Part shown: positions 6,303-36,912 of the stretch, one piece after another
Numbering within the stretch: the first letter of the stretch is position 1
Layout of the letters: every line of letters begins with the position of its first letter
Notes under the pieces: model-generated
Told to the model about the DNA's origin: nothing
The model's database searches: none
What the model saw: the letters and a program-made list of their open reading frames with translations, nothing else
Translations under genes and position numbers: made by a program
Source of the DNA: Synechocystis sp. PCC 7338
Lineage (GTDB): Bacteria; Cyanobacteriota; Cyanobacteriia; Cyanobacteriales; Microcystaceae
DNA: 64,000 bases
Direction of reading: 5' to 3'
Assembly: GCF_018282115.1 (NCBI RefSeq)
Contig: NZ_CP054306.1
Coordinates: 3,085,488-3,149,487, forward strand

Positions 6303-6320
6303 TCCTAGCCTTGGCAATCT

Positions 6321-7628
6321 ATGCGCAATCATCAGTCCATCCATCGTCTCATTCTCGACAACGGCATCACCCTCATCTGTACAGAAAATCCCGCCGCAGA
6401 CTTAGTGGCAGGAAGGATTTTTCTCAAGCAAGCAGGGGCCTGTTGGGACTCTCCCCAAAAAGTGGGGCTTTCCCATCTCATGGCCACAGTGATCACGAAG
6501 GGCACTAAAAGGCGCTCGGCTTTGGCCATTGCTGAATTTGTGGAATGCCTGGGGGCCCACCTCGGGGCTGATGCGGCCAGCGATTATTGGGCTTTGAGTT
6601 TAAAAACTGTCACCGCTGATTTTCCGGTCATCCTCAATTTAGCGGCGGAAATTTTGCGTTATCCCACCTTTGACGTGGGGGAAATTGAACTGGAAAAACG
6701 CCTAATTGTCCAGGCAATTCAGTCCCAGCGGGAACAACCCTTCAACGTCGCTTTCCACCAACTACGCCAATCCATGTATCCCAACCACCCCTATGGTTAC
6801 TCCATTTTGGGTAGTGAGGAAGTGGTGCCCCATTTTACGGCCCAGGATCTGTGGGAATATCATCAAGCCTATTTTCGCCCCGACAATTTGGTGATCAGCT
6901 TGGCGGGACGGTTAACTCAAGCCCAGGCCAGGGATTGGGTAGAAACTAGCTTTGGGGATTGGGCTATTCCCGAGCAATCGATCTTTTGCCCGATTCTAAC
7001 GCCGCTAAATGTTTCCCCCCAGGAACATCTCACCCCCCAGGCGACCCAGCAATCAGTAGTACTTCTGGGTTATCTAGGGGTCGGCGTTAAGCATGAAGAC
7101 TATGCACCGCTAAAATTACTCAGCACTTACCTAGGCAATGGTCTCTCTAGTCGTTTATTTGTGGAACTGAGGGAAAAACGGGGTTTAGCCTACGATGTTT
7201 CGGCCTTTTACCCTACCCGGTTAGGGTCTTCCCAATTTGTCACCTATATGGGCACTGCCCCGGAAAATACGGCGATCGCCATTGCCGGCCTGCGAGCGGA
7301 AACGGAGCGATTATGTGCCCAGGCGTTGGAGGAAGAGGAAATCACAGCGGCCAAAAACAAACTGTTAGGCCAGTATGCCCTGGGGAAACAAACCAATGGA
7401 GAAATAGCCCATCTATTTGGCTGGTATGAAACCCTCGGTTTAGGTTTGGGTTTTGACAGCGAATTTCAAGAATACGTTAAAGCTGTGACAGCGACAGATG
7501 CCCAACGGGTGGCCCAAACCTATTTGGCGGAACCCTACCTTTCCGTGGTGGGGCCGGAGGAAGGTTTAGCGAGATATTTAGGCTGGACTTCAGAAACAGA
7601 AAGCCAAAACTCGGCTGCCCTGGTATAA
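6321..7628 (+). CDS. M16 family peptidase-like protein lacking the zinc motif
   Basis: A 435-residue M16B homologue in which the zinc motif has been replaced: the equivalent stretch reads LSHLMATVITKGTK (about 49-62), with no HxxEH. It keeps the C-terminal Arg/Tyr motif in SSRLFVELREKRGLAYD, which in two-chain M16B enzymes binds the substrate. It is therefore the non-catalytic partner of the protease encoded 18 bases upstream. This division of labour is known for mitochondrial processing peptidase and bacterial pairs, and heterodimer formation here is inference. Confidence 0.9.
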   Translation: MRNHQSIHRLILDNGITLICTENPAADLVAGRIFLKQAGACWDSPQKVGLSHLMATVITKGTKRRSALAIAEFVECLGAHLGADAASDYWALSLKTVTADFPVILNLAAEILRYPTFDVGEIELEKRLIVQAIQSQREQPFNVAFHQLRQSMYPNHPYGYSILGSEEVVPHFTAQDLWEYHQAYFRPDNLVISLAGRLTQAQARDWVETSFGDWAIPEQSIFCPILTPLNVSPQEHLTPQATQQSVVLLGYLGVGVKHEDYAPLKLLSTYLGNGLSSRLFVELREKRGLAYDVSAFYPTRLGSSQFVTYMGTAPENTAIAIAGLRAETERLCAQALEEEEITAAKNKLLGQYALGKQTNGEIAHLFGWYETLGLGLGFDSEFQEYVKAVTATDAQRVAQTYLAEPYLSVVGPEEGLARYLGWTSETESQNSAALV

Positions 7629-31730: not shown

Positions 31731-31760
31731 TCACTACCAACGGTGAACAGGCTGAGGAAA

Positions 31761-32357
31761 ATGTATGTTAGAGCAATATTGCTTGGCCCATTAATAATGG
31801 TTTTGGGACTATTTTGGGTTGCCAGGGTAGGGGCGGAACCAATTATCAAAGTCGAATATAAATACTATTCTATTTATCCAAATACCAAATGGGATTTAAA
31901 CGATGAATTAAATCGACGTAGCCCGATTATTTTTCAGGGTAAACGGTATCGTGGTTACACTCAATGGTTTGTGCGCTGGCAGTATCAATGGTGGTTCACG
32001 GCCCAACAATGTCAAATCACCACCGTTACCACCAACCTCGATGTTACCTATACCCTGCCCCGCATTCCCCCTAACCATGGCGCTGATCCAGAAGCCCGAC
32101 GGGTTTTTAATCGCTACTTAGTGGCCCTGTTTAAACATGAGGAAAACCACAAAAATTCTGGCCTTTATGCAGCTAGGGCCATTGAAAAGGCTCTACTGAA
32201 CCTGGGTCCATTTCCCCACTGTAAGGGTTTACAAACCAAAGCTGAAAGCACTGCTCAACAGATTGTCCAGCGTTACCGCCAAAGGGATCTGGATTACGAT
32301 CGCCAAACAGATCACGGCCGCAAAGAAGGCATTATGATCGAAAATTTTCTCCGTTAA
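31761..32357 (+). CDS. DUF922 family secreted zinc-peptidase-like protein
   Basis: A protein of about 198 residues with an N-terminal hydrophobic signal (AILLGPLIMVLGLFWVARVGA). The DUF922 body follows: YYSIYPNTKWDLNDELN, then HEENHKNSG and the closing DRQTDHGRKEG. The His/Glu arrangement is that of a putative zinc-dependent protease acting outside the cytoplasm. A GAGG ribosome-binding site precedes the ATG at 31761. A GTG at 31743 is possible. It follows thrB closely (30 bases). Activity is unproven. Confidence 0.8.
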   Translation: MYVRAILLGPLIMVLGLFWVARVGAEPIIKVEYKYYSIYPNTKWDLNDELNRRSPIIFQGKRYRGYTQWFVRWQYQWWFTAQQCQITTVTTNLDVTYTLPRIPPNHGADPEARRVFNRYLVALFKHEENHKNSGLYAARAIEKALLNLGPFPHCKGLQTKAESTAQQIVQRYRQRDLDYDRQTDHGRKEGIMIENFLR

Positions 32358-33202: not shown

Positions 33203-34102
33203 ATGTTCAAGCAGTTGTCAGCCACCTTCATTGGACTGTTACTCGCTACGGTGGGCGCCCAGGCGGCGATCGCCGAAACCGTAATGGAGAAAATTATTCG
33301 CACGGGTAATCTAACCATTGGGGCAAACCTGGACACTGTGCCCTTCTCCTATATCAACGAAAACAATGAGGTGGTGGGCTACTCCATTGACATTGCTGAT
33401 CGTATCCGGGAGGAAGTGGGTAAGGAATTGGGGCGGGAAGTGGTTCTGCAAATTGTGGAAGTACAAGATATGAAAGATGCCCTGCCCAAGGTCAAAAACG
33501 GTGAGCTAGACATTGTCTGTAATACCGCCTTTACCTGGGAGCGGGACCGCTACGTTGACTTTACCGCTAGCTATGCAGTGGCTGGTGTCCAACTACTGGT
33601 GCCCAATGACACCCCGATCAATTCTCCCGAAACGTTAATGGGACGCCGGGTAGCCTTGGTGCCCAACACCATTGTGGAGGATGCAGTGAAAATTGCCCAA
33701 ACTGACATCGAAGTGGTGCCCGTTACCAGTGTGCGGGCCGGTATGGAAGCCCTTAAAAAGGGCACAGTGGATGCAGTGGCGGCGGACGGCATTCAATTAG
33801 CAGGCCTAAGGCAGGTATTGGACATGCCTGACACCAAAATTATTCCCCAACCGGCGCAAATTAGGTATGGGGTCGGTTGTATGGTGCGGGAGGGCAATCC
33901 CAGCTTTTTGCGCTTGGCTAATCGGGCTCTGGTGCGGCTAGCGGAGGGCTATGTCCAGGGCGATCCGGAAGACGTGGCCATCGTTGACAAATGGATCGGT
34001 ACCGAGGGAATTGTGCCAGTGGACAATGACAATCTGCGTCAATTCTTTAATTATCTGGTGATTACCCACGAGCAGGTGATGGAACCCAAAAATGGCCAGT
34101 AA
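33203..34102 (+). CDS. grrP: GrrP: extracellular substrate-binding protein of the GRR peptide cluster
   Basis: A 299-residue periplasmic binding protein of the amino-acid-binding (SBP family 3) fold. It has a signal peptide (ATFIGLLLATVGAQAAIAE), then MEKIIRTGNLTIGANLDTVPFSYINENNEVVGYSIDIA and DIVCNTAFTWERDRYVDFTASY. No ABC permease or ATPase lies nearby. This matches the orphan binding protein that regularly sits beside radical-SAM GRR clusters in cyanobacteria (GrrP). Its ligand is unknown. It may bind the mature peptide or a breakdown product. It is followed by two precursor genes on the same strand. Confidence 0.85.
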   Translation: MFKQLSATFIGLLLATVGAQAAIAETVMEKIIRTGNLTIGANLDTVPFSYINENNEVVGYSIDIADRIREEVGKELGREVVLQIVEVQDMKDALPKVKNGELDIVCNTAFTWERDRYVDFTASYAVAGVQLLVPNDTPINSPETLMGRRVALVPNTIVEDAVKIAQTDIEVVPVTSVRAGMEALKKGTVDAVAADGIQLAGLRQVLDMPDTKIIPQPAQIRYGVGCMVREGNPSFLRLANRALVRLAEGYVQGDPEDVAIVDKWIGTEGIVPVDNDNLRQFFNYLVITHEQVMEPKNGQ

Positions 34103-34217
34103 ATGAGGTTGATTTTGATGGATGGTAATTTGGTTGGCACGTTTTGGGGACTGTTCCGACCTTGGCTAAGCCTCACTCCCTAGCCCCATTGTTTTTGTCG
34201 ATTTTTAGGTATTTGTC

Positions 34218-34622
34218 ATGAACTCTAACCAACTTGGCTGGACTGCTTTCCTTGTGGCGATCGCCAGTGTGGCATCCTCCCCTGCTGAAGCCGCTGTGGT
34301 CAACAATGATGTCCCCAGTCAAAGTGGCACCATTGAATCCCGTATTGCCCGTATTCACTCCACCATTAACAATAAGACTGATGCCACCAATGCCCTCGGC
34401 AGTGTTGCCCCTTCTCCGGAAGTCCCCCCCCAAGTGGCGATCGGTTGGGGTAATGGCCGGGGCGGCGGTACTTTTGTCAACTTAGGCCGGGGCGGCTGGG
34501 GCAATGGGGGCGGCGGTGGTGGCTGGGGCAATGTTAATCCCTGGCGTAATGGCTGGGGCGATCGGGGCGGTTTCTATAACCGTCGTTGGCCCAACGGAGG
34601 AGGCTTTATCAACCGTTGGTAG
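34218..34622 (+). CDS. grrA1: GrrA precursor 1, Gly-rich cyclophane peptide precursor
   Basis: A 134-residue precursor. Residues 1-26 are a Sec-type signal ending in the cleavage-site-like AEA-A. Residues 27-75 are a leader with ESRIARIHSTINNK, and residues 76-134 are a Gly/Asn/Trp-rich core. The core holds nine aromatic-X-Asn/Asp triplets: W77-G-N, F86-V-N, W94-G-N, W103-G-N, W109-R-N, W113-G-D, F119-Y-N, W124-P-N, F130-I-N. Such triplets are the known targets of GrrM/OscB-type radical SAM enzymes, which join the aromatic ring to the beta carbon of the third residue. The C-terminus (NRW) is shared with the second precursor. Confidence 0.88.
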   Translation: MNSNQLGWTAFLVAIASVASSPAEAAVVNNDVPSQSGTIESRIARIHSTINNKTDATNALGSVAPSPEVPPQVAIGWGNGRGGGTFVNLGRGGWGNGGGGGGWGNVNPWRNGWGDRGGFYNRRWPNGGGFINRW

Positions 34623-34687
34623 AGCTTATCATTGAAGTCTGACTTGTCTTTTTCTGCTATCACCTCATCAATCTGGGAGAAATATCC

Positions 34688-35125
34688 ATGTCCATCAATA
34701 ACTGCTCTAGCTGGATGGCATTTGTTCTTGCCCTCACGGCGATCGGGACAGTGGCAGAACCCGGCTCCGCTTTAGAAGCTAACCCCCATAATCCCCTCGC
34801 CAACCGCTTAAATAATCTGAGTGCGGCTCTGCAACAACGGGCCAGTCAACTTCCCCCCCAGGAAACTCCCAGCAATCGAGCTGACCTGCAGGCCGGTTTT
34901 GCTAACCGGGGTGGGGGCGGCGGTGGTTTTGGTAATGCCCGGCGGGGAGGATGGGGCAATGGGTCCGGTGGTGGTGGCTTTGCCAATGTGGGGCGGGGCG
35001 GCTGGGCCGATGGCGGTGGTGGTGGCGGCTTTGTCAATATTAATAATCCCTGGGGTAACGGCTGGGGGGATGGAGGCGGCTTTGCTAACCGCAGTGGTGG
35101 CGGCGGTTTTGTGAACCGTTGGTAA
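34688..35125 (+). CDS. grrA2: GrrA precursor 2, Gly-rich cyclophane peptide precursor
   Basis: A 145-residue precursor and a diverged sister of the preceding gene. It has an N-terminal signal segment (WMAFVLALTAIGTVAEPGSALEA), a leader with PLANRLNNLSAALQQR, and a core from residue 70. The core carries ten aromatic-X-Asn/Asp triplets: F71, F81, W89, F98, W106, F115, W122, W126, F132 and F141 as first residues. It ends FVNRW. It starts 65 bases after precursor 1 and has a GGAG ribosome-binding site. Phe-led triplets are more frequent here (six of ten) than in precursor 1 (three of nine), so the products would differ in ring type. Confidence 0.88.
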   Translation: MSINNCSSWMAFVLALTAIGTVAEPGSALEANPHNPLANRLNNLSAALQQRASQLPPQETPSNRADLQAGFANRGGGGGGFGNARRGGWGNGSGGGGFANVGRGGWADGGGGGGFVNINNPWGNGWGDGGGFANRSGGGGFVNRW

Positions 35126-35199
35126 GCTATGGGCCAATCAGAAAAGATTATGAACCTTGAGACCAAGGGAAAACAAATTTGTTTTTTTCTTCCTTTGCC

Positions 35200-35685
35200 A
35201 TGTTTGATTGTCCGGCGGCCATGATTGCTCTAGTAATTGGTGGTTATCAATTGCTGGCGATCGCCCCCTTGATGGCCGGCCCGTCGGATGCCATTGACAA
35301 TAGGTTTCAAGATATGATGCAGGGCTTTTTTGAGTGTCGGCTGGAGGGAACATACATTGCTCTTTGGGAAGGGATTGATCGTCCTAGTCAGGAATTTTTT
35401 GATGATCTTTTCCCTGAAAAAATTGAAGATGACTTTGCTTACTATCAAATTCAAACTAACTATTACGGTCTCCCGGTTACGGAAATCATGATCCCGGCTG
35501 GTACCTGGGGGGTCTATGCTGTCACGTTTGATGTTCCTATAGAAATTTCCCGGGACCGACTGCAAAAAGTATTCGGTTCTAGTTTTGGGGCAACTGAAGC
35601 GTCGGAATCAGGATTAGCGCCACAATTAATTATTGATCCGGACGATAAGCAAAAGTCAATTTGGCTATGCACCCCGCTTTTTTGA
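35200..35685 (+). CDS. small exported protein of unknown function inside the GRR cluster
   Basis: A protein of about 161 residues between the precursors and the maturase. The N-terminal hydrophobic stretch (MIALVIGGYQLLAIAPLMAG) looks like a signal or anchor. The mature part is acidic (DDLFPEKIEDDFAYYQIQTNYYG) and ends with a single Cys near the terminus (WLCTPLF). The AraC-effector-like run TEIMIPAGTWGVYAVTF hints at a GyrI/SOUL-like small-molecule-binding fold, which is only an impression. The ATG could be at 35200 or 35221, and a TTG at 35179 is also in frame. Its position suggests a role in export, binding or protection of the cyclophane peptide. Confidence 0.65.
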   Translation: MFDCPAAMIALVIGGYQLLAIAPLMAGPSDAIDNRFQDMMQGFFECRLEGTYIALWEGIDRPSQEFFDDLFPEKIEDDFAYYQIQTNYYGLPVTEIMIPAGTWGVYAVTFDVPIEISRDRLQKVFGSSFGATEASESGLAPQLIIDPDDKQKSIWLCTPLF

Positions 35686-35724
35686 TGGTAATAACTGACT
35701 ATTTATTTTAATTGGTAACTGCTT

Positions 35725-36912
35725 ATGCAAGGCTTAGTCAAGGAAACTGTAACGTTTGATTCCAGCCTAGATATAACTAAATTTGGCCCCACTACTTTAG
35801 TTATTGTTCAACCTACTTCCTACTGCAACTTGGATTGCGATTATTGTTACTTACCCGATCGCCATTTAAAAAACCATCTGCCCTTGGAACTGCTGGAGCC
35901 AATTATGCAGGCAATTTTTGCCAGTCCATTCACTACTAGCAACTTTAGTCTTTGTTGGCATGCAGGGGAACCATTGGCTGCTGGACTAGAATTTTACCGC
36001 CAAGCCTTTGCCCAGATTGAAGCCTACGGCGAAAAATATAATCACCGCCAGTTGTGGTTCGACCACTCTTTTCAAAGTAATGGCATTTTAATCAACCAAG
36101 CTTGGTGTGACCTATTTAAACAATATCCTGTCCATGTGGGCATTAGCCTCGACGGTCCCGCTTTCCTCCACGATAAACACCGTAAAACCAGAACGGGGCG
36201 GGGTAGTCATGCCGCCACCATGCGGGGAATTGAATGGTTACAGAAAAATGATATTTGCCATAGCGTTATTGCCGTTTTAACAGAGGAATCCTTAGATTAT
36301 CCTGATGAAATTTTCCATTTTTTCCGGGATCATAATCTACTGGATGTGGGCTTTAATATGGAAGAAACGGAAGGCATTAATACGGAATCTTCCCTTAATA
36401 AACAGGGGACTTTGCAAAGATATAGACAATTTTTGGAAAGATTTTGGCAATTGACCAGCTCCAGCGAGCCAGAGTTTCTGGTGCGGGAATTTGAATGTTT
36501 ATGTAACCTAATTTACACTGAAGACCGCCTCGATCATACAGATATGAATCGTCCCTTTGCCATTGTCAGCATTGACCACCGGGGCAACTTTTCTACCTTT
36601 GATCCAGAATTGTTAGCCATTAAAACACCCCAGTATGGGGATTTCATTTTTGGTAATGTGTTGACCGATTCCTTTGCTTCCGTTTGTCAAACGGAAAAAT
36701 TTCAGCGCATTTATCAAGATATGATCCAGGGGGTGGAAAAATGTCGCCAAACCTGTGACTATTTCGGTCTATGTGGCGGCGGTGCTGGCAGTAATAAGTT
36801 TTGGGAAAATGGTAGTTTCAACTCCACTGAGACTCTGGCCTGTCGTTTTCGCATTCAACAGGTGGCGGAGGTGGTAATTGGTGCTCTGGAAGAGTCCCTT
36901 GGGTTAACCTAA
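35725..36912 (+). CDS. grrM: GrrM: cyclophane-forming radical SAM/SPASM peptide maturase
   Basis: A 395-residue radical SAM enzyme. The SAM cluster motif CNLDCDYC uses Cys34, Cys38 and Cys41, with the GEP motif (HAGEPLAAG) near 77. The C-terminal SPASM/twitch region has many Cys residues (KCRQTCDYFGLCGGGAGSNKFWENG and ALACRF, about 335-380) for auxiliary clusters. This architecture beside Gly-rich precursors is the GRR system. Characterised relatives (OscB) form three-residue cyclophanes in aromatic-X-Asn/Asp triplets, exactly the repeats in the two precursors upstream. It was formerly annotated as an arylsulfatase-activating homologue. Confidence 0.92.
   Translation: MQGLVKETVTFDSSLDITKFGPTTLVIVQPTSYCNLDCDYCYLPDRHLKNHLPLELLEPIMQAIFASPFTTSNFSLCWHAGEPLAAGLEFYRQAFAQIEAYGEKYNHRQLWFDHSFQSNGILINQAWCDLFKQYPVHVGISLDGPAFLHDKHRKTRTGRGSHAATMRGIEWLQKNDICHSVIAVLTEESLDYPDEIFHFFRDHNLLDVGFNMEETEGINTESSLNKQGTLQRYRQFLERFWQLTSSSEPEFLVREFECLCNLIYTEDRLDHTDMNRPFAIVSIDHRGNFSTFDPELLAIKTPQYGDFIFGNVLTDSFASVCQTEKFQRIYQDMIQGVEKCRQTCDYFGLCGGGAGSNKFWENGSFNSTETLACRFRIQQVAEVVIGALEESLGLT

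Follow-up and report, generated by a model that had tools for sequence, protein, structure and literature searches.

A predicted GRR-type cyclophane peptide locus with two precursors and one additional gene in Synechocystis sp. PCC 7338

The radical SAM maturase OscB, as described in the review PMC11002830, bonds Trp through its C7 to the beta-carbon of Asn or Asp and Phe through its C4 to that of Asn, in each case two residues further on in the precursor. NCBIfam describes a GRR system with three components, the precursor GrrA (TIGR04260), the maturase GrrM (TIGR04261), and the protein GrrP (TIGR04262), and AmcB and other cyclophane-forming radical SAM maturases (NF041718, YhhB, FxsB, and XyeB) are enzymes related to GrrM. 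The OscA/OscB locus used for comparison below (L138) is from Oscillatoriales cyanobacterium CG2_30_40_61, which we take to be the source of OscB (OIP69445.1). Here, we analyzed a 64,000-nucleotide stretch (the window) of the 3.83-Mb genome of Synechocystis sp. PCC 7338 (G000), in which five consecutive open reading frames (ORFs) on the plus strand, at positions 33203-36912, encode GrrP, two precursors rich in Trp/Phe-x-Asn/Asp triplets (GrrA1 and GrrA2), a small protein that we refer to as P4, and GrrM.

The GRR locus of the window and its closest relatives

The five genes are as follows.

33203..34102, plus strand: GrrP, an orphan periplasmic amino-acid-binding-like protein with a signal-peptide-like start
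34218..34622, plus strand: GrrA1, a precursor of 134 amino acids with 9 triplets (6 Trp, 3 Phe) and a signal-peptide-like start
34688..35125, plus strand: GrrA2, a precursor of 145 amino acids with 10 triplets (4 Trp, 6 Phe), a signal-peptide-like start, and a diverged leader
35179..35685, plus strand: P4, a small orphan protein of at most 168 amino acids with a signal-peptide-like start
35725..36912, plus strand: GrrM, a predicted radical SAM/SPASM cyclophane-forming maturase of 395 amino acids

An earlier, sequence-only reading of this DNA had proposed a GRR cyclophane-peptide cluster that begins with an orphan binding protein and ends with a maturase. Based on the curated NCBIfam cut-offs, all three components of the GRR system are present: GrrP scored 241 bits (cut-off 190), GrrA1 and GrrA2 scored 74.4 and 61.2 bits (cut-off 31), and GrrM scored 632 bits (cut-off 310). 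The last value is also the answer to a test set in advance, in which the lack of a match between GrrM and the GRR maturase family was to count against the proposal. The AmcB model scored 294 bits on GrrM, under its cut-off of 425. In Pfam, GrrM matched Radical_SAM (57.6 bits; cut-off 29.5), while SPASM stayed under its cut-off (16.4 versus 21.5) and neither GrrA1 nor GrrA2 had a match over cut-off. The CX3CX2C motif read in GrrM corresponds to C34, C38, and C41, which are invariant in 17 of 17 aligned GrrM sequences, as are seven further Cys residues (C77, C128, C321, C340, C344, C350, and C373). The solved chains nearest to GrrM by sequence are anaerobic sulfatase-maturating enzymes (expectation value [E] 2e-31) and the radical SAM domain of ChlB (E 3e-23).

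The ORF positions bear out the proposed row of five plus-strand genes. Because the gaps from GrrP to GrrM are short (in order, 115, 65, 53, and 39 bases) and the strand is common, the arrangement suggests that GrrP-GrrA1-GrrA2-P4-GrrM form a single operon; promoter- and terminator-like sites were not above shuffles (3 versus 4.9 expected and 4 versus 5.4 expected). Signal-peptide-like starts, judged by eye, were seen in GrrP, GrrA1, GrrA2, and P4, in agreement with the proposal that both Gly-rich precursors are exported. The start of P4 is uncertain, with candidates at TTG 35179, ATG 35200, and ATG 35221. The nearest named genome that we found is Synechocystis salina LEGE 00031, which is taken as one with G004 and whose GrrM is 97% identical to that of the window.

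Like the window, the OscA/OscB locus has two tandem precursors before the maturase, the same leader motif, W/F-x-N/D cores, and an adjoining GrrP. Unlike in the window, its precursors contain fewer triplets (5 and 7), GrrP is oppositely oriented, and there is no match to P4. Relative to the NCBIfam GRR system, the window adds P4 between precursor and maturase. These results support assigning the locus to the GRR (OscB-type triceptide) systems already known from cyanobacteria, as an operon with all parts present, and we put the probability of this reading at roughly 0.85.

Triplets, expected rings, and precursor leaders

The two precursors of the window contain 19 Trp/Phe-x-Asn/Asp triplets, 9 in GrrA1 and 10 in GrrA2. 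In their second halves, all 18 Trp and Phe residues with room for it have Asn or Asp at position +2, while residue shuffles gave a mean count of 3.1 (standard deviation 1.5) and a maximum of 11 in 20,000 shuffles; the aromatic-x-Asn/Asp repeats that had been picked out by eye thus stand far above composition. The same spacing was found in the second halves of 99 GrrA-like proteins, in which Asn or Asp is at +2 for 761 of 802 Trp and Phe residues and makes up only 2-9% of residues at +1 and at +3 to +6. Cores with up to 12 triplets occur in the family. Because the triplets follow the published OscB rule, OscB ring chemistry is expected in the window, and by analogy with the characterized OscB we infer that GrrM of the window forms three-residue rings.

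The two aromatic residues differ in the residue that ends the triplet, and they do so in line with the bonds reported for OscB. In the window, all 9 Phe triplets end in Asn, while 3 of the 10 Trp triplets end in Asp. Across the family, Asp is the last residue in 83 of 301 triplets that start with Trp and in 30 of 460 that start with Phe (nominal Fisher P 3e-15, since homologous sequences are not independent). With four Asp-rich loci (L165, L166, L171, and L175) omitted, the counts were 77 of 292 for Trp versus 5 of 435 for Phe. The GrrA-like precursors of these four loci (L165 8315-8635, L166 8178-8507, L171 4273-4584, and L175 6099-6515) have FGDFGD, FDDFDD, or DWND cores that are not glycine-rich, and 25 of the 30 Phe-x-Asp triplets fall in them.

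An alignment of 107 leaders showed a hydrophobic start with GFLLALS, followed by a variable stretch and an amphipathic IExRLSRIxxAL motif. Among residues present, the motif is conserved at 100% for Arg, 91% for Leu, 88% for Glu, and 81% for the second Arg; directly before the first ring, an Ala-x-Gly is conserved at 86% (Ala) and 79% (Gly). GrrA1 has the version IESRIARI and GrrA2 has LANRLNNLSAAL. A small-x-Ala motif within residues 16-60, used as a loose test for a signal-peptidase site, was present in 97 of 99 precursors.

GrrA was found in 72 of the 87 loci examined, as one copy in 47, two in 23, and three in 2. Having two tandem precursors, for which the sequence-only reading knew of no described reason, is therefore ordinary in the family, given that 25 of the 72 GrrA loci carry two or three, and we rejected it as a special feature. 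In one locus with three GrrA copies, that of Hydrocoleum (L116 3610-5320), the downstream GrrM is broken over several ORFs.

A leader tree (107 rows and 75 columns, with bootstrap values that did not settle; sequences from L152, L124, L164, L084, L071, and L064 left out) was used to compare the copies. Copies cluster by locus in SU2, L129, Hydrocoleum, L141, L127, G008, and G001, and do not do so in Planktothrix and the Geminocystis-like loci. The Crocosphaera/Cyanothece pair represents two old, kept classes, in which the far copy has 0-1 Trp and 4-8 Phe triplets and the near copy has 3-5 Trp triplets. GrrA1 of the window clusters with GrrA from three other genomes of the same genus (G001, G002, and G003). 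GrrA2 is on a long branch (1.55) away from GrrA1, together with the corresponding proteins of S. salina and G003, which argues that the GrrA pair of the window is not a recent tandem duplicate; a long-branch effect may explain why the rows nearest to GrrA2 are Leptolyngbya-like.

Selection, GrrP, and the possible role of the product

For GrrA1, comparison of the window with G003 gave a nonsynonymous divergence (dN) of 0.037 for the core and 0.328 for the signal peptide plus leader; for GrrA2, the corresponding values were 0.062 and 0.162. Among six further groups, median core dN was lower than leader dN in five, and core dN was the lower of the two in 40 of 45, 45 of 45, 4 of 6, 6 of 6, and 6 of 6 pairs in these groups, counts that are not independent, since the pairs of a group have ancestors in common. 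A core that changes this slowly disfavors an arms-race peptide and points to a lasting physiological or structural function more than to a weapon. If the ringed peptides were secreted warfare agents of the bacteriocin kind, from which P4 or GrrP protects the producer, there would be precedents in darobactin, an antibiotic cross-linked by a radical SAM enzyme (PMC9055067), and in a narrow-spectrum antibiotic made with DynE (passages of PMC11002830); that GrrA copy number varies from 1 to 3 per locus and that parts are absent in some genomes would also fit. Against this, the core is the slower part in five of six groups and in the window, and no transporter, exporter, or immunity gene was found among the neighbors identified (cobI, thrB [by eye], a DUF922 protein, and cpcE), to which the scan was limited. 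We regard warfare as quite improbable.

GrrP matched Pfam SBP_bac_3 at 80 bits (cut-off 26.4), and its best sequence matches in the PDB are solute-binding proteins. Residues 23-266 align with 2ia4 (E 5e-20), with R114, D195, and both Cys residues in register, and R114, D195, C106, C226, and W112 are invariant in 55 of 55 GrrP sequences. In the SBP_bac_3 family, Arg holds the carboxylate of the ligand and Asp the amino group. Because these likely ligand residues are kept, GrrP appears to be a functional receptor that takes an amino acid or the end of a chain, and not a dead copy. It differs from SBP_bac_3 periplasmic binding proteins such as 2ia4 and 2vha, which are presumably glutamate/aspartate binders, in that no ATP-binding cassette (ABC) permease or ATPase was found among the neighbors identified. 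A second GrrP-like protein is encoded in the source genome outside the window (G000:C1:977239-978009; 180.6 bits, cut-off 190), and proteins similar to it occur in genomes without GrrM.

We take the PCC 6803 locus tags sll1762-sll1766 to correspond to the five genes, with Sll1762 presumably being the counterpart of GrrP. According to PMC6584798, the one review found for the locus tags, which mentions the protein a single time, Sll1762 accumulates under salt stress. This observation, together with an orphan solute-binding GrrP that keeps its likely ligand residues, would fit a product that has metal ions or a small molecule as its ligand, with GrrP handing over or sensing the complex. Neither core of the window contains His or Cys, though, the second halves of the 99 precursors contain Cys in 2 cases and His in 34, and no transporter was among the neighbors identified; we consider this explanation unlikely.

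Among 58 relatives, 25 genomes have GrrM over cut-off, 26 have GrrA, and 29 have GrrP. GrrA is present in all 25 genomes with GrrM and absent from 32 of the 33 without it. Of 339 genomes sampled evenly across the phylum, 45 have GrrM over cut-off. Based on 81 loci (80 named loci and the window), GrrP adjoins GrrA/GrrM in 55, in both orientations, while GrrM stands alone in 13, some of them at contig ends. The frequency with which GrrP adjoins the other genes is higher than chance operon sharing would lead one to expect and bears on a further alternative, in which GrrA is a structural protein of the envelope or surface, its rings stiffen the glycine-rich chain, and GrrP binds amino acids and merely shares the operon. 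Glycine-rich cores with as many as 12 triplets, core constraint in all but one of the six groups, and the occurrence of GrrP-family proteins in genomes without GrrM would all fit such a structural protein, which we regard as possible but doubtful in view of the linkage of GrrP.

Three further observations concern the distribution. In G029 (locus L084), a TAG stop interrupts GrrA, and only the second part is over cut-off. G057 (L044, L055, L056, and L057) has four GrrM over cut-off and five GrrA matches, one of them under cut-off, on four contigs. L152, a contig that bears the label Candidatus Eremiobacterota, carries a GrrM (58% identical) and a GrrA-like ORF, which may reflect horizontal transfer or a binning error.

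Several findings weigh against reading the locus as a complete OscB-type system. GrrM of the window is just ~57% identical to the maturase of the OscA/OscB locus. In two genomes of the same genus, G001 and G002, GrrM is apart from GrrA and GrrP. Microcystis departs from the other groups: its core evolves faster than its leader, with the lower dN in the core in none of 6 pairs. This exception coincides with a loose gene arrangement, in which GrrM is unlinked from GrrA, and G029, whose interrupted GrrA is described above, is also among the Microcystis relatives. GrrM is present in 11 of 12 Microcystis genomes; G010 of the Microcystis group (two contigs; L066 and L095), the exception among the relatives noted above, has an intact GrrA with 9 triplets and GrrP without a match to GrrM, and the ringed product can thus be dispensable. 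Finally, the GrrP family is over cut-off in 4 of the 33 genomes without GrrM (G005, G010, G026, and G052). TIGR04262 is therefore not specific to GRR, and GrrP need not serve only a ringed product.

If the window nevertheless encodes the complete GRR operon that we favor, the following course of events can be proposed. In the cytoplasm, GrrM would recognize each GrrA by its leader, which it probably holds at IExRLSRIxxAL, and would bond the aromatic ring of a Trp to the beta-carbon of the Asn or Asp two residues on, and that of a Phe to the beta-carbon of an Asn at the same distance, giving up to 9 rings in GrrA1 and up to 10 in GrrA2. The signal peptide would then export the modified chains and a protease would remove the leader; this would leave a glycine-rich polypeptide with many rings, located in the periplasm or outside the cell, where GrrP may act with it. 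We infer this order of events, including leader recognition, export, leader removal, and the partnership with GrrP, as well as a physiological role of the GRR product. We found no mass or nuclear magnetic resonance data for this organism.

P4, neighboring genes, and implications

The exported small protein that had been counted as a member of the cluster is present, while its membership of the GRR family did not hold: P4 was detected in 3 of the 58 relatives, all of the same genus (G000, G003, and G004). There was no match in G001 and G002, and 3 of 5 genomes of the genus thus carry it. The phylum sample contained P4 in 2 of 339 genomes, plus a weak match in G283 (E 0.0013 over 44 residues) that was treated as chance. 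Of the 87 loci examined, 3 have P4, accompanied in all three by GrrA2. Among 63 loci in which the gap between GrrA and GrrM was measured, it is 599-611 bases in the three P4 loci and at most 108 bases in 54 of the 60 others. In L141, the position that P4 takes in the window, between GrrA and GrrM, is occupied by a dissimilar small protein (6315-6743) that also begins with a signal-peptide-like stretch.

P4 is under purifying selection, with a ratio of nonsynonymous to synonymous divergence (dN/dS) of 0.13 to S. salina and, over the region in common, of 0.15 and 0.18 in pairs that include G003. The G003 gene shows a difference of five bases that shifts the signal-peptide part out of frame, which is either a real change or a sequence error. 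P4 of the window had no match among PDB sequences, Pfam, or NCBIfam at E up to 10, and the G003 protein had one chance-level Pfam match. AlphaFold predictions had a mean predicted local distance difference test (pLDDT) score of 40.1 and 38.9, too low for a fold search. An IPAG-plus-aromatic motif prompted a comparison of P4 with GyrI-like and Cass2-like ligand-binding proteins, which the shallow profiles did not support: an alignment of three P4 sequences scored 13.3 in hhalign against GyrI-like proteins (7 sequences, no shuffle control) and 14.4 against Cass2 (3 sequences), for which column shuffles reached 22.5.

The operon is flanked by cobI upstream and cpcE downstream, both on the minus strand. 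Beyond cobI, a protein of DUF922, a family referred to as a zinc protease, is encoded on the plus strand at 31743-32357 of the window (153 bits, Pfam). It had no BLAST match in 29 relative loci or in the other loci examined and is thus not considered a linked part of the GRR system.

A more far-reaching reading, which we regard as less likely than not, is that GRR products are slowly evolving, exported, multi-ring polypeptides with a standing role at the cell surface of cyanobacteria, that they are not antibiotics, and that they are handled or read by the receptor-like GrrP; one Synechocystis lineage would have gained an independently derived second precursor together with a new exported partner, P4, that acts on or with it.

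The bonds made by OscB have been reported, yet in the open-licence literature, among the matches listed, we found no role for natural multi-ring glycine-rich products of cyanobacteria and no paper title on GrrA/GrrM function in these organisms; a term search of PMC8326336 returned no passage on cyclophanes. The present analysis adds the difference between Trp and Phe in the preference for Asp, the evidence for selection on the core, and an extra gene, P4, in an otherwise family-typical set. The stronger conservation of core than of leader, and the reverse in Microcystis, hint at function and could be examined in further genera. PCC 6803 is naturally transformable. With the whole set in one Synechocystis operon, and with natural genomes that lack P4 or GrrM, the function of the GRR system would be testable by gene deletion.

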